This document shows positions 2,146 through 57,501 of a stretch of 64,000 bases of DNA, piece by piece. This stretch comes from Alphaproteobacteria bacterium. GTDB taxonomy: Bacteria; Pseudomonadota; Alphaproteobacteria; Geminicoccales; Geminicoccaceae. Under the pieces are notes generated by a model. That model made no database searches, was not told the origin of the DNA, and worked only from the letters and a program-made list of their open reading frames with translations. Each line of letters begins with the position of its first letter. The first letter of the stretch is position 1. The translations under genes and the position numbers were made by a program. Location of the stretch: the NCBI GenBank assembly GCA_027045875.1, contig JALUAG010000027.1, positions 1 through 64,000 of the forward strand. Direction: 5' to 3'.

Positions 2146-3278
2146 TCACCCCTCCGCCGCGGGCAGCGGCGCGACCGGCATCGCGGGTGGCCGGCGCATC
2201 GGACGACGGGGGACGAAGGGCGCATCACCCGTCGATTCCGCCTCCGCCGGTTCCCGCACCGCCCGGTGCCGGGGCGACAGTTCGCAGGCCGGATCGGCGT
2301 TGCGCGGATCGCCCGTCAGCAGCATCGCCTGGCGGCGGCAGCCGCCGAAATCCACCTCGCGGCGCTCGCAGGAACGGCAGGGCTCGCGCATCCGGCCGGT
2401 ACCGCGGAAGGCGCGGAAGGGCGCGCTCTCCTGCCAGATCCAGGCCAGCGAGGCCTCCCGCACCGAGGGAAAGGTCGGGCCGGGAATGACGTAGGCGGCG
2501 TGGCAGGGCAGCGCCCGGCCGGAGGGGGTGACGTTGATCACCATCCACCCCCCGCCGCCCATGCAGGGCTTGGGGCGGCGGGCCCGGTAGTCCGGCACCA
2601 CATGGTCGATCACGAGCCGCCCGCGGAGCTTCTCCCGCGCCCGTTCCACCACCCGGTTGGAATGGGCGAGCCGGGCGCGGGTCGGCATCAGCGCCTTCCG
2701 GTTCAGGAGCGCCCAGCCGTAGTACTCGACATGGGCGCCGGCCGGTGAGCGTCGAGGGTCATCGCCAGCGCGATCACCTCCTCGAGGCGGTCGATGTTGT
2801 GGCGGTGCACGACGGCGTTGACGGTGAGCGGCAGCCCGGCCGCGCGCACGGCCCGGGCGATTCTCATCTTCTGGTTGTGCCCGCCCTTGTAACATCCGAT
2901 AAGATCGGCCGTTTCGTCGGCCACGCCCTGGATGCTGAGCTGCAGATGGTCGAGCCCGGCTTGGCGCAGGCGCCGGATGCGGGCCTCGTCGAGCAACATG
3001 CCGGAACTGATGAGATTGACGTAGAGGCCGGCCGCCCGGGCATGGGTCACCAGATCCTCGAGATCGCCCCGCACCGCCGGCTCGCCGCCCGAGAGATGGA
3101 GCTGGAGCACGCCGAACGCGGCGGCCTCCGCGAAGACCCGCCGCCATTCGGCGGTCGAGAGTTCGCCGCTGCGACCTTCCAGTTCCAGGGGATTGGAGCA
3201 GTAGGGGCAGCGCAGGGGACAGCGGTGGGTGAGCGCGGCCAGCATGCCGATGGGCGGCTCGGTCCGGGGATCAGCCAT
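2146..3278 (-). pseudogene. pqqE: PqqE, PQQ biosynthesis radical SAM/SPASM protein, frameshifted
   Basis: The N-terminal part (3278 down to about 2745) has the radical SAM cluster motif CPLRCPYC, the GGEP motif and PqqE-type sequence. The reading frame then shifts. From about 2740 to the stop at 2146 a second frame carries the remainder: HVEYYGWALLNRKALMPT, then SPASM cysteines (CMGGGG, CHAAY, CRSCERREVDFGGC). Compared with the usual PqqE spacing between the basic pair and AHVxYYGWA, about four bases are missing near 2735-2747. PqqE crosslinks Glu and Tyr of the PqqA peptide. The start overlaps the pqqD stop by 8 bases, the usual coupling. No pqqA, B or C lies here, so a decayed locus is likelier than a sequencing error, but an error cannot be excluded. 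Confidence 0.8.
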
Positions 3279-3660
3279 CGACCGTCTCCGACGGGCGCAG
3301 GGTGAGGAAATCCCGGGCGAGGAGGTCCTCCGTCATCGCCCGCACGTCCCGGGCGATCACCTCGCGGGGGGCGTCGAACTCGGCGGCCAGCGTCTCGACG
3401 GGATCGCCGAACCGCCGCCCCTCGCCCGGCCGCTCGAGGACGGCGACCGCGATCGGACAGGCGAACGGCACCCGCTCCGGAGCCGGCAGCACGTGCCGCC
3501 CGCGCACGGGATCGAAGCGCAGCCGCACCCAGGGCGGCAGGGCGGGGATGCGACGGTCGAGGTCGGGTACGGTGTAGAGGCTGACCGCGAACAGCGGGCG
3601 TGCGCCCGGGCAGGCGCTGGAGAGCGGCACCAGGACGACGCCGAGACCGGCCTCCATCAT
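3271..3660 (-). CDS. pqqD: PqqD-like PQQ chaperone, joined in frame to LysR remnant
   Basis: The last 80 or so codons (about 3540 down to 3271) are PqqD-like: WVRLRFDPVRGRHVLPAPER, then a C-terminal helix region EVIARDVRAMTEDLLARDFL. PqqD binds the PqqA precursor peptide and presents it to PqqE. No start codon is evident at the normal PqqD N-terminus; the frame runs upstream without a stop into LysR effector-domain sequence. The nearest in-frame ATG is at 3660, inside that remnant, and a GTG lies at 3630. The product, if made, would be a chimera of about 129 residues. The stop overlaps the pqqE start (ATGGCTGA). Whether it is translated is unknown. Confidence 0.55.
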   Translation of the reverse strand: MMEAGLGVVLVPLSSACPGARPLFAVSLYTVPDLDRRIPALPPWVRLRFDPVRGRHVLPAPERVPFACPIAVAVLERPGEGRRFGDPVETLAAEFDAPREVIARDVRAMTEDLLARDFLTLRPSETVDG

Positions 3661-5456: not shown

Positions 5457-6578
5457 TCAGGCGCGTCCCCGCCGGAGATCGCGCAGCGGGGCGAGGTCGA
5501 TCAGATGCCCGCTTCTTCGGGCCTTGGTCTCGAGATAGAAGTGGTTGTGGCGGTTGGCGGCGAAGCTGTGCGGTACCCGTTCGGTGACGGTGATGCCGTG
5601 GCGGGCGAGCGCCTCCACCTTGCCCGGATTGTTGGTCAGCAGGCGGACCCGCGGCAGGCCGAGGCGCTCCAGGATGGTGGCGGCGACCAGGAAATCCCGC
5701 TCGTCCGGCTCGAAGCCGAGATGGATGTTGGCATCCACCGTGTCGAGCCCCTCCATCTGCAGGCGGTAGGCGCGCAGCTTGTTGACGAGGCCGATGCCGC
5801 GCCCCTCCTGGCGCAGATAGAGGAGCACCCCGCCCCCCTCCTCCGCCATGCGCCGCAATGCGCCCTCGAGCTGCTCGCCGCAGTCGCAGCGTAGCGAACC
5901 GAACAGATCGCCGGTCAGACATTCGGAATGCAGACGGCAGAGGGGCGGCGCCTCCGCCGTCGGCGAACCGATCAGGATGGCGTACTGCTCGGCGCCTCCG
6001 TCGGCGGGGCGGAAGGCGACGAAACGGGCCCGCCCCGCCAGTCGCAGGGGGATCTCGGCTTCCACCACCGGCCGCACGCTGCGCGCGATCCAGTCGCGAT
6101 AGGCGAAGACGGAGACGAGATCGGCCTCGGCGGCGACATGGGGTTCGCCCCGCGCCCCCTCCTCGAAGACCAGCGCCGCCGGCAGCAGGCCGGCGAGCTT
6201 GCAGAGCTCGAGGGCGGCGGTCTCGATGCGGTCGGCGGGCCGCAGATCGCCGCTGCCGAAGGGCAGCGGCGAGGGCGGCGGCAGGGTGGGGTCGACCAGC
6301 GGACGGAGGGCCGCCTCCGCGGCCGCCGGATCGAAGGGCAGGGCGTAGCTGCCCTCGGGCTCGACGGCGAAGCCGAGGCTCGCCAGCCGCCAGCCGGTGA
6401 GGGCCAGCCGCACCGGCCGCTCGCCGAGAACGGCGGGCGAGGGCAGGGTCTCGACGGCCATCGCCAGCCGTCCCGTGGTATCGAGGATGCGGCAGGCCAG
6501 GCCGCAGCGCAGCGCCCGTTCGGCGGTGGTCACCTCGAAGATGCGCCGCGGCGGCGGGCCGCTCTCGATCTCGCGCAT
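5457..6578 (-). CDS. ribA: GTP cyclohydrolase II
   Basis: 373 residues. GTP cyclohydrolase II opens GTP to 2,5-diamino-6-ribosylamino-pyrimidinone phosphate, the first step of riboflavin synthesis. The catalytic domain is the C-terminal half: zinc cysteines in SECLTGDLFGSLRCDCGEQL (C220, C231, C233), the RQEGRGIGL loop, and LLTNNPGKVEAL. The N-terminal 170 or so residues are a divergent extension, seen in long alphaproteobacterial RibA proteins, with no DHBP synthase residues recognisable. It stands alone on the minus strand; the other rib genes are not in the window. The start ATG at 6578 is the first of the frame. Confidence 0.93.
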   Translation of the reverse strand: MREIESGPPPRRIFEVTTAERALRCGLACRILDTTGRLAMAVETLPSPAVLGERPVRLALTGWRLASLGFAVEPEGSYALPFDPAAAEAALRPLVDPTLPPPSPLPFGSGDLRPADRIETAALELCKLAGLLPAALVFEEGARGEPHVAAEADLVSVFAYRDWIARSVRPVVEAEIPLRLAGRARFVAFRPADGGAEQYAILIGSPTAEAPPLCRLHSECLTGDLFGSLRCDCGEQLEGALRRMAEEGGGVLLYLRQEGRGIGLVNKLRAYRLQMEGLDTVDANIHLGFEPDERDFLVAATILERLGLPRVRLLTNNPGKVEALARHGITVTERVPHSFAANRHNHFYLETKARRSGHLIDLAPLRDLRRGRA

Positions 6579-6877
6579 GCCGGTCGTTCCGCTCTCTGCC
6601 GGAACCCGCGGATCGCGATGTCGCGGGTACGGGCTCTACTTAGCGCCGAAACCCGGCGGGGCAAAGCACCGGCACCGTGAGCGCCCGGCACCGAAGGCGG
6701 GTTCCGCCGGTCCTCGACGAACGATTCCCTGAAATCCCGTCTCGATGTATTTTTCGCACCAACGAGAACAGCGGCCATCGGGCTCGACCCCCGTCCTTCC
6801 GTTCTTCCCGCCTTCGCGCGCCGGATCGCGGGATCCCGGGCCCGTGCGTTCCCCCGACCAGGCCAGGGAGGCGGTTC

Positions 6878-7927
6878 ATGCAGAACGATCGGCAGGGCAA
6901 CGGAAACGGTGCGGCGGATCCTTCCCGCATCTTCGAGATCGGCTTCGGCTTCTTCGCTTCCAAGGTGCTGCTGACCGCGGTCACCCTGGAGCTGTTCACG
7001 ATCCTCTCCGACAGGGCGACGACGGGTGCCGAACTGGGGCGGGCGATGGGGCTGCATCCTCGTGGTGTCGCCGATTTCCTCGATGCGCTCGTGGCCCTCG
7101 GTTTTCTGGAGCGGGAGGGCGACGGCGAGCACGGCCTCTACCGCAACACCGAGCTGGCGGCGCGTTTTCTCGACAAGGCCAGCCCGGACTATATCGGCGG
7201 CATTCTCGAGATGTGCGATGCGCGCCTGTTCGGTTTCTGGGACGATCTCGGCGAGGCGCTCCGGACCGGCCGGCCGCAGAACGAGATCAAGCACGGCGGC
7301 CGCTCCATCTTCGAGGAACTCTATGCCGATCCCCGGCGACTGGAGCAGTTCGTCGAGGCCATGGCCGGCGTCTCCCGGGGGAACTTCCGAGCGCTGGCCG
7401 GAACGTTCGATTTCTCGGCCCATGACACCCTGTGCGATCTGGGTGGCGCCAGCGGCCTGCTGGCGGTGACCGTGGCCCGGCATCATCCGCACATGCGCTG
7501 CATCACCTTCGATCTGCCGGCGGTCGAACCGATCGCACGCAGGACCATCGAGCGGGCCGGTCTCGACGGGCGGGTGACGGTGCATTCCGGGGATTTCTTC
7601 ACCGATCCCCTGCCCCCGGCGGACATCTACACCGCCAGCCTGATCCTGCACGACTGGAACCTCGCGAAGAAGAAGGCGCTGATCGGCAGGGTCCATGCCG
7701 CCCTGCCCGAGGGCGGGGCGTTCATCGCCATCGAGAACCTGATCGACGACGGGCGGCGGCACAACGCCTTCGGCCTCCTGATGTCCCTCAACATGCTGGT
7801 CGAGACCGGCGACGGGTTCGACTTCAGCGGCGCCGATTTCCGTTCCTGGTGCCTGGAGGCCGGCTTCCGGCACTGCGAGGTGCGGCCCCTGACCGGCCCG
7901 TCCAGCGCGGCGATCGCCTACAAATAG
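6878..7927 (+). CDS. Family 2 SAM-dependent O-methyltransferase
   Basis: 349 residues from the ATG at 6878, preceded by GGGAGG at good spacing; the frame is open further upstream but without a better start. The N-terminal dimerisation/winged-helix part (FEIGFGFFASKVLLTAV to FLEREG) is typical of plant-type and polyketide O-methyltransferases such as acetylserotonin-like enzymes and CrtF. The SAM motif is LCDLGGASGLLAV (about 186-198). The catalytic-base region reads SLILHDWN. The substrate is probably a small phenol, quinone or carotenoid hydroxyl, but nothing nearby tells which. No partner biosynthetic genes flank it. Confidence 0.85.
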   Translation: MQNDRQGNGNGAADPSRIFEIGFGFFASKVLLTAVTLELFTILSDRATTGAELGRAMGLHPRGVADFLDALVALGFLEREGDGEHGLYRNTELAARFLDKASPDYIGGILEMCDARLFGFWDDLGEALRTGRPQNEIKHGGRSIFEELYADPRRLEQFVEAMAGVSRGNFRALAGTFDFSAHDTLCDLGGASGLLAVTVARHHPHMRCITFDLPAVEPIARRTIERAGLDGRVTVHSGDFFTDPLPPADIYTASLILHDWNLAKKKALIGRVHAALPEGGAFIAIENLIDDGRRHNAFGLLMSLNMLVETGDGFDFSGADFRSWCLEAGFRHCEVRPLTGPSSAAIAYK

Positions 7928-14620: not shown

Positions 14621-16480
14621 TCAGGTGCGGAAATGCTCCTCCACGTAACGCACGAGCCTGGCCAGGCATTCCTCCTCCGGCAGCTCGTCGGTGGCGATCA
14701 CGAGCTCGGGCGATTCGGGCGGCTCGTAGGGGCTCGAGATGCCGGTGAAGTCCGGGATCTCGCCGGCCCGCGCCTTCCTGTAGAGTCCCTTGGGGTCGCG
14801 CCGCTCGCAGGTCTCGAGCGAGGCCTTGACCCAGATCTCGTGGAAATCCCCGCCGGCCGCCCGGCGCGCCCGTTCGCGGTCGGCGCGATAGGGGGAGATG
14901 AAGGCGGAGATGGCGATGAAGCCGGCATCGGCGAACAGCGCCGCCACCTCCCCCACCCGGCGGATGTTCTCGGCCCGGTCGTCGGGTGAGAAGCCGAGAT
15001 TGGCGTTGAGGCCGGAGCGGATGTTGTCGCCGTCCAGCACGTAGACGTGATAGCCCTTGGCGAAGAGCTCCCGTTCGAGGGCCAGCGCCAGGGTCGACTT
15101 GCCGGCTCCCGACAGGCCGGTGAACCACAGCACCCCGCCCTTGTGCCCGTTGCGGGCCTGGCGTGCCTCGCGGGTCACCGCATGGCCGACGGCGTGGATG
15201 TTGGTGGACTTGACGGTCACCAGCCGGCGCTGGTCGGGATAGCCCTCCATCGAGATGATGCCACCGCCCACCGGCCGGTAGTCCTCCACCAGCACGAAGC
15301 GGCCGGTCGCGGGATTGCTCTCGTACTCGTCCACCGCCAGCAGGCGACGTGCCCGCAGCACCACCTCGCCGGCGCCGTTGCGCGGGATCCGGTCGGCCGG
15401 ACGGCTGGAGAGATCGTCGGTGTCGATCACCCGCTCGATGGCCTCCACGGTGACCCGTGTCTCGGTGGTGCCGAGCTTCATCAGATACTGCCGGCCGGTT
15501 TCCAGCGGCACCTGACCGAGCCAGAAGATGCGGGCGCGGAAGACGTTGCTCTCCATCGGCGCCCCTTCGAGATGGCTCATCACCTCGCCGCGCTCGATGA
15601 AGATCTGCTCGTCCAGGGTGACGCCGATGCTCTGCCCGGCGCTCGCCCGCTCGGGCGCCTCCGGCACGTTCCAGGCCTCGATGGTGCGGATGCGGGCGGT
15701 CTTGTTGGAGGGGGAGAAGACCACCTCGTCCCCCACCGCGAGGCTGCCGCTCTCGATGCGCCCGGCGATGATCCGCCGATGGTCGAACTTGTAGACGTCC
15801 TGGACCGGCATCCGGAGCGGACGGTCCACCGGCGGCGGCAGATGGGCGAACCGGTCGAGCGTCTCGACCACGCTCGGCCCCTGGTACCAGGGCATGGCGG
15901 GGCTGTGCCGGACGATGTTGTCGCCCTCCCGCGCCGAGACGGGGATGAAGGCCACGGGCTCGACCCCGAGGCCGGCGAGGTAGGCGCGGTAGTCCTCCGC
16001 CACCTGGCCGAACCGCTCGGCGGCGTAGCCCACGAGGTCCATCTTGTTGACCAGCACCGCCACCTGCCGCACGCCCAGGAGATGCAGCAGATAGCCGTGG
16101 CGGCGGGACTGTTCCTGCACTCCTTCCGCGGCGTCGATCAGCAGCAGCGCCGCTTCCGAGTTGGCCGCCCCGGTCACCATGTTCTTGAGGAATTCCTTGT
16201 GGCCCGGCGCATCGATGATGACGTAGGGGCGCCTTTCCGTGCGGAAGCGGATCTGGGTGGTATCGATGGTGATGCCCTGGTCGCGTTCGGCCTGGATGGC
16301 GTCCAGGAGAAACGCCCATTCGAAGGGCATGCCGCGCCGCTCCGACATCGCCCGGATGGCCTCCACCTTGCCTTCGGGCAGGGATCCGGTGTCGTGCAGC
16401 AGGCGGCCGACGAGGGTCGATTTGCCGTGATCGACATGGCCGACGATCACGATCTTGAGGGGACGGTCTTCGCTGGTCAT
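14621..16480 (-). CDS. cysNC: Fused sulfate adenylyltransferase GTPase subunit and APS kinase (CysNC/NodQ)
   Basis: 619 residues from ATG 16480. The N-terminal half is an EF-Tu-like GTPase: P-loop GHVDHGKS (about 14-21), [18 protein letters not shown]. The C-terminal APS kinase domain starts near residue 448 with Walker [10 protein letters not shown] (455-463), VLDGDNIR and ISAFISPYR. With CysD, encoded 28 bases upstream, it makes APS from sulfate and ATP, then phosphorylates it to PAPS. Fusion of the two is typical of rhizobial NodQ and other proteobacteria. PAPS also serves sulfotransferases; one is encoded at 55.4-56.5 kb. It converges on the SorC gene with only 6 bases between stops. Confidence 0.96.
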
Positions 16481-16508: not shown

Positions 16509-17303
16509 TCACATGTAGCCGGCAGCGCGCAGGCGCTCGAAGGCGTCCTCGGTCTCGTGGTCGAGGGCACGGCCGGCACGCTCCGGCACCTTGGTGGTCT
16601 CGAGCTCGCGGATGATCTCGTCGATGGTGCGGGCCTCGCTCGCCACCGGGAAGGTGATGTCGCGGTCGCCGAGGGAACGGTAGCGCTTGCCGTCCCTCGC
16701 GAAATAGAGATCGATGACGGGAATGTTCTCGCGCTTGGTGTAGCGCCAGATGTCGACCTCCGTCCAATGCAGGATGGGATGGACCCGGACGTGGGTGCCG
16801 GGCGGGAAGTCAGTCATGTACTGGTTCCAGAACTCGGGCGGCTGGTCCTTCATGTCCCAGGAATTGTCGGCGCCGCGCGGGCTGAAATAGCGTTCCTTGG
16901 CCCGCAGCGCCTCCTCGTCGCGGCGAATCCCGAGGATCAGCCCCTCGAAGCCGTGTTTCTCGAGCGCCTGCTTGAGCCCCAGCGTCTTGCGTGCCGCCGA
17001 ACGCGCCGCCGGCGGCAGGGTGGGATCCACGGCCTCGATGGGCGGGCAGGGCTCGGCGATGAAGTTGAGTCCCCACTCCTTCGCGTAACGATCACGGAAA
17101 GCGTACATTTCCGGGAACTTCTTGCCGGTGTCGACATGCAGCACCGGAAAGGGGACGTGGCCGAAGAAGGCCTTCCTCGCCAGCCACAGCACGACGTTGC
17201 TGTCCTTGCCGAGGGACCACAGGATGGCGAGCCGGTCGAGCTTGGCGAAGGCTTCGCGCAGGATGTAGATGCTCTCCGCCTCGAGCGCGTCGAGATGATT
17301 CAT
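16509..17303 (-). CDS. cysD: Sulfate adenylyltransferase small subunit
   Basis: 264 residues from ATG 17303. It is a PP-loop ATP pyrophosphatase of the PAPS reductase-like fold: [51 protein letters not shown], and the C-terminal [21 protein letters not shown]. With the CysN half of the next gene it forms ATP sulfurylase, the first step of assimilatory sulfate use. It is promoter-proximal in a two-gene operon; a TTGTGC/GCACAA palindrome lies about 100 bases upstream. Confidence 0.96.
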
Positions 17304-55142: not shown

Positions 55143-55355
55143 ATGCAGCCCGGTCACATCTACAAGAAGACCGAGATCGTCGGCACCTCGGAGAGCTCCC
55201 TCTCCGATGCCATCGAAAGGGCGGTGGCGCGGGCCTGCAGAACCCTGCGCCACGTCGACCGGTTCGAGGTGGTGGAGACCCGCGGCACGGTGCGGGACGG
55301 CAAGGTGGAAAGCTACCAGGTGGTGCTCAAGATCGGGTTCCGTCTCGAGGATTGA
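55143..55355 (+). CDS. Dodecin
   Basis: 70 residues. It matches the flavin/CoA-binding dodecin fold: YKKTEIVGTSESSLSDAIER, RACRTLRHVDRFEVVETRG, and VESYQVVLKIGFRLED. Dodecins form a 12-mer that stores riboflavin or FMN. The ATG follows GGGAGG by 6 bases. Confidence 0.93.
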   Translation: MQPGHIYKKTEIVGTSESSLSDAIERAVARACRTLRHVDRFEVVETRGTVRDGKVESYQVVLKIGFRLED

Positions 55356-55370
55356 GCCCCGACCCGTCGC

Positions 55371-56501
55371 TCAGCCGGTCGCCGTTCCGGCGGCATGTTC
55401 GCCGATGCGCGCCCAGACCTCGCCGGTCTCTTCGGCGAGCGCCGTCTCCTCCGCGGCATCGAATGCCGGCCGGTAATAGCCCGGACGGCTGAGCCGGGCG
55501 GCGGCGCGGGCGCGCTCCTCCGCGGAAAGCGGCAGCGCCACATGCGCGAAGATGCGCTCCAGGGTCGCCTCCGCCCGGTCGCAGAGATCCTCGTAGCGCA
55601 CGAGGAGTGCCCGGGCGCGCAGGGTCTCGTCGGCGGCCAGCCGGTCGAGCAGGAACCCGTAGAGCATGGCCCAGTAGCGGGCGAAGCCGCGCACGAGCTC
55701 CCCCTTCCGCCACAGCTCGCGGATGCTCTCCACCCGCGCCGTGTCGCCGGTGTTGACGGGGCGCAGGTCGAGGCCGAACTCGAAATGCCCGACCCGCCGC
55801 ATGTGCGCGAGGATGCGCGGGTCGCGCTCCTCCTCCCGACAGAACAGCCGATGCTGCTTGATCAGTGATGCCACGTGCCAGCGCGGATCGCGCACCGGCA
55901 GGACGAACCGGGCATCGGGAAACAGCTTCAGCAGATAGGAAAGACGGGTGAGATTGTAGTTGCCCTTGCAGAGATAGCGCGTGCCGCCGCGGATCAGCAG
56001 GATCTTGCGGATGTGGTCCCGGTAGAAGCGCTCGAAGGCGGGATGCTCGGTCTCCCGGTCGAGAACGTTCGATCTTCCCGGATCGTGCAGATCGGGGAAG
56101 AAATGCATCCACAGCACTTCCTCGAACGCCTCGGGACTGTCCGGGGTGACCAGGATGCGGTCCCGGTGTGCCCGTTCGGCGGGGGGCGCGTCGCGATCGT
56201 AGATGTGGGCGAAGGCGCGGTTCCAGAAGATCGGCGTGAAGATCGGCGGGAAATCGCGGTAGCGATGGGTGGCGACCCCGGGACGGGAGGCCAGCAGTTC
56301 GAGCAGGATGGTGGTGCCGGCCCGCGCCAGTCCGGTCACGTAGATCGGCCGGTCGATCGCGATCTCCGCGAGATCAGCCGCGAACACGCGGCTCTCGAGA
56401 TCGCCCAGCCGCCGCCAGAAACCGCCGGTGCGCTCAACGAAGCCGCCGAGACGGTCGAGCCAGCCCGGCATCTCCATGCCGGCCGCGGAGGAGGTTGCCA
56501 T
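55371..56501 (-). CDS. PAPS-dependent sulfotransferase-like protein
   Basis: 376 residues from ATG 56501, overlapping the upstream stop (TGATG). The 5'-phosphosulfate loop is PIYVTGLARAGTTILLELLA, the P-loop-like TGxARxGTT motif; the second PAPS region is RFVLPVRDPRWHVASLIKQH. These are features of the sulfotransferase superfamily, acting on carbohydrate, lipid or Tyr hydroxyls. PAPS would come from CysNC at 14.6 kb. It is the distal gene of a three-gene unit with an EMC3-like membrane protein and a small YIGPGAG protein; the acceptor is unknown, but a cell-surface glycan or lipid is likely. Confidence 0.87.
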   Translation of the reverse strand: MATSSAAGMEMPGWLDRLGGFVERTGGFWRRLGDLESRVFAADLAEIAIDRPIYVTGLARAGTTILLELLASRPGVATHRYRDFPPIFTPIFWNRAFAHIYDRDAPPAERAHRDRILVTPDSPEAFEEVLWMHFFPDLHDPGRSNVLDRETEHPAFERFYRDHIRKILLIRGGTRYLCKGNYNLTRLSYLLKLFPDARFVLPVRDPRWHVASLIKQHRLFCREEERDPRILAHMRRVGHFEFGLDLRPVNTGDTARVESIRELWRKGELVRGFARYWAMLYGFLLDRLAADETLRARALLVRYEDLCDRAEATLERIFAHVALPLSAEERARAAARLSRPGYYRPAFDAAEETALAEETGEVWARIGEHAAGTATG

Positions 56502-57262
56502 CACTCGATCCGGAAGACGAGTTTGACGAGCAGCGAAGTGACGAGCAGGCTCGCGAAGTAGATCGCCTCCCAGCCGGCGAGCCAGCCGGGCAGGCCGGGG
56601 AGCAGGCGGCGCGGCGCGAGCTCGAAGCGGATGGCCTCGATCGCCGCATCCTCGCGCAGATAGCCCATCTCGTTGCCGAGAAGGAGGTTCCACCAGAGCG
56701 GCTTGTGGACCACATCGTTGGCCGGAACCGGCGGCGGGCCGGCATAGACCACCCCCTTCGCGTCGCGGAAGCGGATCTCGCCGGCACTCGCGGGCCAGCG
56801 CAGGAAGAGCTCCCCGCCGCGTTCCTCGAGCGCCCCCTGCGGCTCCACCAAGATTCCCCCGCGTCCCGGCTCGAAGGCGATCGCCACCGGCGATGCCGGT
56901 GGCGGCGGTTCATAACCGTAGCGGGCCGCGACCCACAGGATGACGAGCAGGATGGGCAGCGAGGCGAGCAGGGCCGGACCGGTGACGGTGCCGAGCAGAC
57001 GGAAGGAGGCCGCGAGGTTGGCGCGCGAGAGGCGCATGGTCTCGCCGAGATCGTCGCCCGCCGCCAGCCGACGGCGGATCCGTCCGATCTCCTCCTTGTG
57101 CCGCCGGATCTTCTCCTGGTTCGAGCTCCAGCGGTAGAAGCCCATGGTGACGACGCCGCTCGCGACCCCGAACAGGGCGACCCGCAGGCCGGCGGGCAGG
57201 AAGGCGATCAGGGCGTCGAGGGTGTCGAACAGCGGGAAGGAGAGGTTCAGGAGGCCATTCAA
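56501..57262 (-). CDS. Membrane protein with EMC3/DUF106-like topology
   Basis: 253 residues from a TTG at 57262 that overlaps the previous stop (TTGA); no ATG or GTG start fits. Layout: TM1 about 25-43, a basic cytosolic coiled-coil hairpin about 44-88 (RWSSNQEKIRRHKEEIGRIR), TM2 about 92-113, a periplasmic beta-rich insertion about 114-228, and TM3 about 229-249. TM1-coiled coil-TM2-TM3 is the topology of the EMC3/TMCO1/DUF106 branch of the Oxa1/YidC superfamily, with an added outer domain. The assignment rests on topology, not on sequence identity. It probably helps insert or position the sulfotransferase product or partner. Confidence 0.65.
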   Translation of the reverse strand: MNGLLNLSFPLFDTLDALIAFLPAGLRVALFGVASGVVTMGFYRWSSNQEKIRRHKEEIGRIRRRLAAGDDLGETMRLSRANLAASFRLLGTVTGPALLASLPILLVILWVAARYGYEPPPPASPVAIAFEPGRGGILVEPQGALEERGGELFLRWPASAGEIRFRDAKGVVYAGPPPVPANDVVHKPLWWNLLLGNEMGYLREDAAIEAIRFELAPRRLLPGLPGWLAGWEAIYFASLLVTSLLVKLVFRIE

Positions 57263-57501
57263 CGGCCCTCGTCCTGCGCGGCGGCGGTGGTCGCGGCGGC
57301 ATTCCGGCGGCGACGGCGCAGCAAGGCGCGGATGGGCCAGAACAGGACCGCCCCGATCGCCAGGAAAACGGCGACGATCACCCCCCACAACGCGCCCAGC
57401 ATGGTGATCCCCGCCCCGGGACCGATGTAGGCCATCGCCGGTGCCGCATGGAGGCCCAACCACAGAGCCGGCAGCAGGATCGCGAGGCGAAGATCGCGCA
57501 T
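57259..57501 (-). CDS. Small exported YIGPGAG membrane protein
   Basis: 80 residues from ATG 57501 (GGAGA upstream); an earlier start at 57573 is less likely. A signal-like segment ends near APAMA, then AYIGPGAGITMLGALWGVIV and a second hydrophobic span (AVFLAIGAVLFWPIRALL) followed by an Arg-rich cytosolic tail. The YIGPGAG motif directly after the signal cleavage site is a conserved small family often next to sulfotransferase or phosphatase genes. Function unknown. It is the first gene of the unit. Confidence 0.7.
   Translation of the reverse strand: MRDLRLAILLPALWLGLHAAPAMAYIGPGAGITMLGALWGVIVAVFLAIGAVLFWPIRALLRRRRRNAAATTAAAQDEGR

Follow-up and report, generated by a model that had tools for sequence, protein, structure and literature searches.

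Arylsulfate sulfotransferases (ASSTs) use aryl sulfates rather than 3′-phosphoadenosine 5′-phosphosulfate (PAPS), and a 2026 review describes the natural acceptors of most bacterial ASSTs as unidentified and their physiological role as poorly understood (PMC13426309). Among bacterial sulfotransferases encoded together with other components, RaxST of Xanthomonas (raxX-raxSTAB) is reported to lie beside a small protein and membrane proteins, with a secretion system that exports the sulfated peptide. In mycobacteria, the sulfotransferase gene of the Stf3/S881 system is tied to sulfated menaquinone, a precedent for a lipid carrier (PMC3141025). Insertases are reported to scramble lipids in vitro (PMC10491306). 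Here, we analyzed a 64,000-nucleotide stretch of DNA (“the window”; positions 1 to 64,000 of the forward strand of contig JALUAG010000027.1, assembly GCA_027045875.1, an alphaproteobacterium of the Geminicoccaceae), in which a predicted PAPS-type sulfotransferase, a membrane protein resembling the Oxa1 superfamily, and a small protein with the motif YIGPGAG are encoded by three joined genes (“the trio”). The trio is very likely part of a conserved membrane sulfation set whose parts are functionally coupled, as judged from sequence comparison. A full transmembrane relay of sulfuryl groups, from PAPS to a surface acceptor, is our preferred though tentative reading of this set, with a probability of roughly 0.45. 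The initial annotation of the locus had proposed an undescribed route that sulfates a surface molecule and inserts or exports it; membrane sulfation is well supported, with an ASST as the usual fourth partner, while insertion or export of a surface molecule is something we infer.

The three genes lie on the minus strand, joined as initially annotated. A TTGA overlap combines the stop codon of the small protein with the TTG start of the membrane protein (57262–57260), and a TGATG overlap at 56503–56499 combines the stop codon of the latter with the ATG of the sulfotransferase. The features of the trio are as follows.

57259..57501, minus strand: small single-span protein, 80 amino acids (translated open reading frame; signal peptide 1–24 judged by eye)
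57427..57429, minus strand: codon for Tyr25, an invariant residue with which the mature small protein is predicted to begin
56501..57262, minus strand: three-span Oxa1-superfamily-like membrane protein, 253 amino acids, TTG start
57125..57193, minus strand: span 1 (helix 24–46 of the structure model), then a basic helical hairpin, residues 49–94
56918..56980, minus strand: span 2, residues ~95–115, with invariant P103 (alignment and model)
56590..56908, minus strand: β-rich insertion between spans 2 and 3, residues ~119–225, with invariant WWN and GN motifs
56513..56572, minus strand: span 3 (helix 231–250 of the structure model)
55371..56501, minus strand: predicted PAPS-type sulfotransferase, 376 amino acids, Sulfotransfer_3

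To estimate how well this arrangement is conserved, we used 72 loci found by the membrane-protein profile alone in a one-genome-per-species collection; a scan of genome contigs with the single sequence yielded little or nothing. To go by their record titles, the loci come from Alpha- and Gammaproteobacteria, apart from two entered as Desulfatitalea and Deltaproteobacteria and a few labeled simply Proteobacteria. Neighboring genes were detected with hidden Markov models, to the building of which seven of the 72 loci (L031, L032, L061, L065, L067, L081, and L102) also contributed; proximity was defined as within 4.5 kb on the same strand. The trio stays grouped in 58 of these relatives, a grouping on which the initial annotation had made its proposal depend, and in 49 an ASST gene is present as well. 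The order ASST, small protein, Oxa1-like protein, sulfotransferase was observed in 46 loci (including L097, where the sulfotransferase is in pieces), with median gaps of 41 to 68 bases between matched stretches. When the small protein was required to be near and the sulfotransferase to be anywhere in the locus on either strand, the count rose to 63. Chance adjacency of the trio was rejected by a neighbor-recurrence control: in the 60 loci used, after 12 near-duplicates had been left out, no gene family outside the cassette occurred in more than eight. Four distance matrices were correlated (r of 0.66 to 0.83; none of 2000 shuffles was as high in 36 loci), a result in which joint inheritance is not separated from common descent of the hosts. 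Alignments comprised 52 membrane proteins, 39 ASSTs, 48 sulfotransferases, and 45 small proteins, and genes were called with a simple codon-usage caller, so that starts are approximate.

Among 60 near relatives, the Oxa1-like gene occurs in eight, including this genome, and is absent from the other two genomes of the genus. One relative on a plasmid is annotated as “hypothetical protein.” A match in G008:C46 (L010 and L019), whose frame differs from that of the called gene, is probably due to chance. In Nitrococcus mobilis Nb-231 (L089, 6998–7889), there is just a short sulfotransferase match behind the Oxa1-like gene, and neither small protein nor ASST was seen; this may perhaps be a decayed cassette.

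The small protein and the membrane protein have no significant family match, unlike the sulfotransferase, which is recognized by Pfam. For the membrane protein, there was no Pfam match up to E = 10, and NCBIfam likewise yielded little or nothing. A comparison with EMC3 and TMCO1, proposed in the initial annotation, gave a divided outcome: the PF01956 (EMC3_TMCO1) cut-off was not reached, with no matches in the own genome and one among the 52 members (E = 0.052, below the cut-off), while the 52-sequence profile matched MJ0480 of M. jannaschii at E = 1.5e-8, the sole match below 0.1 among PDB sequences. This match covers span 1, the hairpin, and span 2. A nine-sequence profile found MJ0480 among PDB sequences at E = 1.6e-4. 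MJ0480 is treated as a DUF106 protein in PMC8887752.

An AlphaFold2 model built from the 52 sequences (predicted local distance difference test score of 93.3) contains an N-terminal helix and helices at residues 24–46, 49–68, 72–115, and 231–250. The predicted layout is span 1, a basic hairpin that continues into span 2 (up to residue 115), the β-rich insertion, and span 3. The hairpin between spans 1 and 2 was placed in the cytosol, with the N terminus outside, an orientation judged by eye from its basic character. In a structural alignment, the two top-ranked chains were 7tut_8 (Z of 10.9, root mean square deviation of 3.5, 136 aligned residues) and 6w6l_6 (Z of 8.9, deviation of 4.8, 133 aligned residues), values that, being below ~13, are weak for helical proteins. 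Both were taken as TMCO1 chains from their entry titles (TMCO1-translocon) and length; Get1 chains ranked lower. With the first model, 7tut_8 had a Z of 11.1, Get1 entries at most 7.2, and E. coli YidC 6.2. Taken with the sequence match to the archaeal protein, the predicted structure has an Oxa1-type core; a model lacking this fold, named in the initial annotation as a refutation, was not what we obtained. The model and the profile match agree with the topology with a periplasmic-side insertion that had been read from the sequence alone. Since structural Z scores alone are weak for a helical protein, it is the added sequence match that makes us consider kinship of this protein with the Oxa1 superfamily, in its archaeal DUF106/TMCO1 branch, highly likely.

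The assignment of the third gene to PAPS enzymes was confirmed at the family level: the protein matches Sulfotransfer_3 (PF13469) at E = 3.7e-18, with 67 bits against a cut-off of 27. Residues R60, G62, and T64, as well as R204 and S212, are invariant in the 48 sulfotransferase sequences; we take them to be the 5′- and 3′-phosphate-binding motifs of PAPS sulfotransferases. The family profile and these residues predict a PAPS-type enzyme. Its nearest solved relatives are protein-tyrosine sulfotransferases (E = 5.8e-11), a match that consists of short pieces.

The small protein consists of a predicted signal peptide (residues 1–24), Tyr25, the sequence IGPGAG, one span, and a basic C-terminal tail. 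In the 45-sequence alignment, A24, Y25, G27, P28, G31, and P56 are invariant. The Tyr directly follows xxA in all 65 copies, and in the wider set, it is kept where subsequent letters differ (YMGAGAG, YSGPGVG, and YIGPGLG). The best match to PDB had an E of 0.14. The scan of 240 Alphaproteobacteria described below also gave nine places with E between 1e-10 and 1e-3, of which seven were inspected; none of the seven adjoins the sulfotransferase family. Two of them (L149 and L153) are probably chance matches in an apparent antiporter operon, in two (L150 and L154) the match did not correspond to a called small protein, and three (L151, L152, and L155) are of a YIDPGTG type. The latter form a small YIDPGTG/YLDPGTG family located after a predicted signal peptide (L151, 3863–4150; L152, 3390–3569; and L155, 2633–3931); in L155, the segment fronts a 432–amino acid protein. 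These relatives have the Tyr with no sulfotransferase family match in the three stretches, and the invariant Tyr was therefore rejected as proof of a tyrosine carrier. Substrate sites of tyrosylprotein sulfotransferases are flanked by acidic residues, unlike the Tyr of the small protein, around which there are none.

The first reading overlooked a fourth partner. An ASST is near in 50 of the 72 loci and a PF01663-type enzyme (a phosphodiesterase of the alkaline-phosphatase superfamily) in 17; no locus has both, and five have neither. PF14269 was above its cut-off in all four cassette ASSTs scanned and in both ASSTs of the own genome. In the active site of EcAST, residues His252, His356, Asn358, Arg374, and His436 are listed (PMC13426309). 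In the 39 aligned ASSTs, including both own-genome copies, H178, H179, H265, N267, R293, and H320 are invariant and Q319 is nearly so; these fit the EcAST residues by order and H-x-N spacing, the match to EcAST itself having an E of only 0.64. The Arg and the QHD were positioned by aligning with 9kf4/9kf6. An N-terminal hydrophobic segment appears to anchor the cassette ASSTs (seven sequences, judged by eye).

Gene fusions provide additional information on the layout. PF01663 was detected in three proteins fused to an Oxa1-like domain (L014, L017, and L018; E = 4.8e-34, 1e-35, and 2.9e-35). A signal peptide–like stretch at the start of these fusions fits an Oxa1-like domain whose N terminus is outside. 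In L116, the sulfotransferase is continuous with a short membrane domain; the enzyme comes after the third span, which agrees with an inside C terminus. In L118, the small protein is fused to a phosphodiesterase. This locus, from genome G253 (5755–7815 and 2771–3595), has a YIGPGAG segment fronting a PF01663 enzyme, after which come another enzyme of this kind and a distant Oxa1-like protein; a reading frame from 7939 on the other strand is sulfotransferase-like by eye. Several neighbors were observed in single loci. A PF00884 sulfatase-family protein follows the phosphodiesterase–Oxa1-like fusion in L014 (6130–12916) and L018 (8584–15145), the latter also with a Wzy_C O-antigen-ligase protein, which hints at a surface polymer. 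A gammaproteobacterial record (L048, 980–5067) has three tandem ASST genes before the trio, and in G082 (L115, 6705–7685), a DUF3137 protein (PF11335, E = 1.6e-13) lies between the ASST and the small protein.

The co-occurrence of the components was assessed in 240 Alphaproteobacteria, including this genome, with cut-offs of E ≤ 1e-5 for the Oxa1-like protein, 1e-40 for the sulfotransferase, and 1e-20 for the ASST. The Oxa1-like gene was found in seven genomes (one weakly), the sulfotransferase in eight, the ASST in 15, and the small protein in 18 (10 at E ≤ 1e-10). All eight sulfotransferase genomes have the small protein and the ASST, and six have the Oxa1-like gene; hypergeometric values for such co-occurrence ignore ancestry. 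A further sample of 18 genomes came from two draws with the small-protein profile (the 10 at E ≤ 1e-10 and nine others drawn at E ≤ 1e-4, with G000 in both); this profile was built from cassette members, so that the sample is not wholly independent. The sulfotransferase adjoins the small protein in 17 of these genomes (not in G253) and the ASST does so in 14.

In 16 of these 17 genomes, a membrane protein or domain lies between the small protein and the sulfotransferase. It is the Oxa1-like protein in G000, G188, G215, G231, G234, and G580; a short type of ~120 to 133 amino acids in G082, G236, G352, G609, G474, G503, and G666; the short type fused to the sulfotransferase in G247; and a longer type in G439 and G428. 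The exception is G014, where the small protein and the sulfotransferase are side by side and an Oxa1-like domain fused to the phosphodiesterase is encoded elsewhere on the same contig. Simple hydropathy revealed three spans in nine of the 10 intervening proteins of nontypical kind (the end of L143 lies outside the slice) and in four of six typical members. We do not claim the short three-span proteins as Oxa1-like homologs: with eight sequences, hhalign gave a probability of 6% (E = 0.006), and with three it gave no match. For the longer type (L140 and L143), the probability was 45% (E = 2.2e-4). Both types share with the Oxa1-like protein, as far as we conclude, position and layout only. The L117 version of the short type lacks an ATG start within the sequence examined, and a search of 385 genomes for further short-type proteins gave two weak matches.

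Comparison of sequences and models supports the component families, their grouping, the conserved predicted active-site residues, and the predicted layout; we infer what carries the sulfate, how it crosses the membrane, what accepts it, and in which sequence the steps occur. Since an ASST, an enzyme family that uses aryl sulfates, is kept together with a PAPS-type sulfotransferase and an insertase relative, a relay is the simplest reading, and the ASST or alkaline-phosphatase-superfamily partner points to such a relay rather than to plain export. The cytosolic sulfotransferase would use PAPS to sulfate an acceptor that resides in the membrane and can later serve as an aryl-sulfate donor. A phenolic or quinol lipid is a candidate for this carrier, favored in view of the stf3-linked sulfated menaquinone of mycobacteria. 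The Oxa1-superfamily-like protein, with the small protein as a partner, may then let the sulfated group cross the inner membrane, where a membrane-anchored periplasmic ASST would take the sulfate on its active-site histidine and pass it to an acceptor at the surface. In a second lineage, the role of the ASST would fall to an alkaline-phosphatase-superfamily enzyme.

Several observations weigh against this reading. Foldseek gave no structural match for the membrane protein at E ≤ 0.001. The two ASSTs of the own genome are on other contigs, neither adjoining the trio; one of them had no match in PDB, and there is no direct alignment to EcAST. In the sample of 240, seven of the 15 ASST genomes have no sulfotransferase at the cut-off used. 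In nine of the 72 loci, either no sulfotransferase or no small protein is present within the stretch examined, some of these loci being at contig ends, and L054 has ASST, small-protein, and Oxa1-like genes and no sulfotransferase. No gene for lipid synthesis recurs in the neighborhood. The three-span protein could also act as a scaffold only.

This last possibility, which we consider unlikely, holds that the three-span and small proteins only keep the sulfotransferase at the membrane beside the periplasmic enzyme; a lipid-linked precursor would be sulfated in the cytosol and moved by another flippase, and the ASST or phosphatase-like enzyme would edit the product afterward. The anchor-like fusion of a short membrane domain to the sulfotransferase in G247 and the great differences in length and sequence of the intervening membrane protein among lineages are consistent with it. 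A bare anchor, however, is not expected to retain an Oxa1-type layout together with nearly invariant residues at both membrane faces.

It is rather improbable that the Oxa1-like protein is a dedicated insertase for the small protein or the ASST, with no contact with a sulfated carrier. M13 procoat is a substrate of YidC, and the small protein, with its signal peptide, short outside tail, one span, and basic tail, resembles procoat. Superfamily members are insertases (PMC8887752). Yet small proteins of this kind should already be within the reach of general YidC, and a dedicated insertase leaves unexplained why the sulfotransferase is the small protein’s most constant neighbor. A sulfotyrosine carrier, in which the sulfotransferase sulfates the small-protein Tyr, the Oxa1-like insertase moves the tail outward, and the ASST discharges it onto a surface polymer, would agree with the constancy of this Tyr, with the solved relatives of the sulfotransferase, and with tyrosine peptides being among the acceptors tested for ASSTs (PMC13426309), but is very improbable given the YIDPGTG-type relatives, the absence of acidic residues around the Tyr, and the piecemeal character of the match to tyrosine sulfotransferases; if true, it would supply the long-sought natural ASST donor and give the Oxa1 superfamily a role in sulfate transfer.

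The relay would require PAPS, for which two genes ~40 kb from the trio in the window are the predicted source.

14621..16480, minus strand: CysNC-like protein with an adenosine 5′-phosphosulfate (APS) kinase domain (PF01583, E = 1.8e-65; PF00009, E = 3e-44), not adjacent to the trio
16509..17303, minus strand: CysD-like protein beside CysNC (PF01507, E = 8.9e-37), not adjacent to the trio

An APS kinase–like gene adjoins the cassette in four of 60 loci; the one such protein tested contains PF01583 (E = 1.2e-14) and a cytidylyltransferase-like domain. The gene that converges with the trio on the opposite strand (55143–55352) encodes an ordinary dodecin (PF07311, E = 3.9e-27).

The cassette names candidate partners for ASSTs and opens the question of their role to tests in bacteria that can be cultured, for example Thalassospira. 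A proteobacterial DUF106/TMCO1 relative that probably serves a purpose other than general protein insertion would be added as well, with relevance to whether lipids or other carriers are moved by Oxa1-type proteins in vivo. No description of the gene combination, and no occurrence of YIGPGAG, was found in the literature searched, most subscription journals being outside its coverage.

Each known system shares a part of the cassette. The ASST partner belongs to the families of EcAST/AssT-type enzymes (PF05935 and PF14269) and has invariant residues in line with their active-site pattern; known ASSTs are described with Dsb genes (PMC13426309), whereas those of the cassette have the genes for the Oxa1-like protein and the PAPS-type sulfotransferase as neighbors. 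Where the RaxST system has a secretion system, the cassette has the Oxa1-like protein and an ASST or phosphatase-like enzyme. For Stf3/S881, the accessible text of PMC3141025 mentions neither an Oxa1-like partner nor an ASST, both of which are present here; use of a quinol by our sulfotransferase would be an analogy to that system. With the DUF106/EMC3/TMCO1 branch (MJ0480, TMCO1, EMC3, and GET1, with YidC more distant), the membrane protein shares three spans and a cytosolic hairpin between spans 1 and 2. It differs in the ~100-residue β-rich insertion between spans 2 and 3, in being proteobacterial and part of a sulfation gene set, and in falling below PF01956 recognition. Overall, the component families are known, and the evidence for the system they form is comparative.

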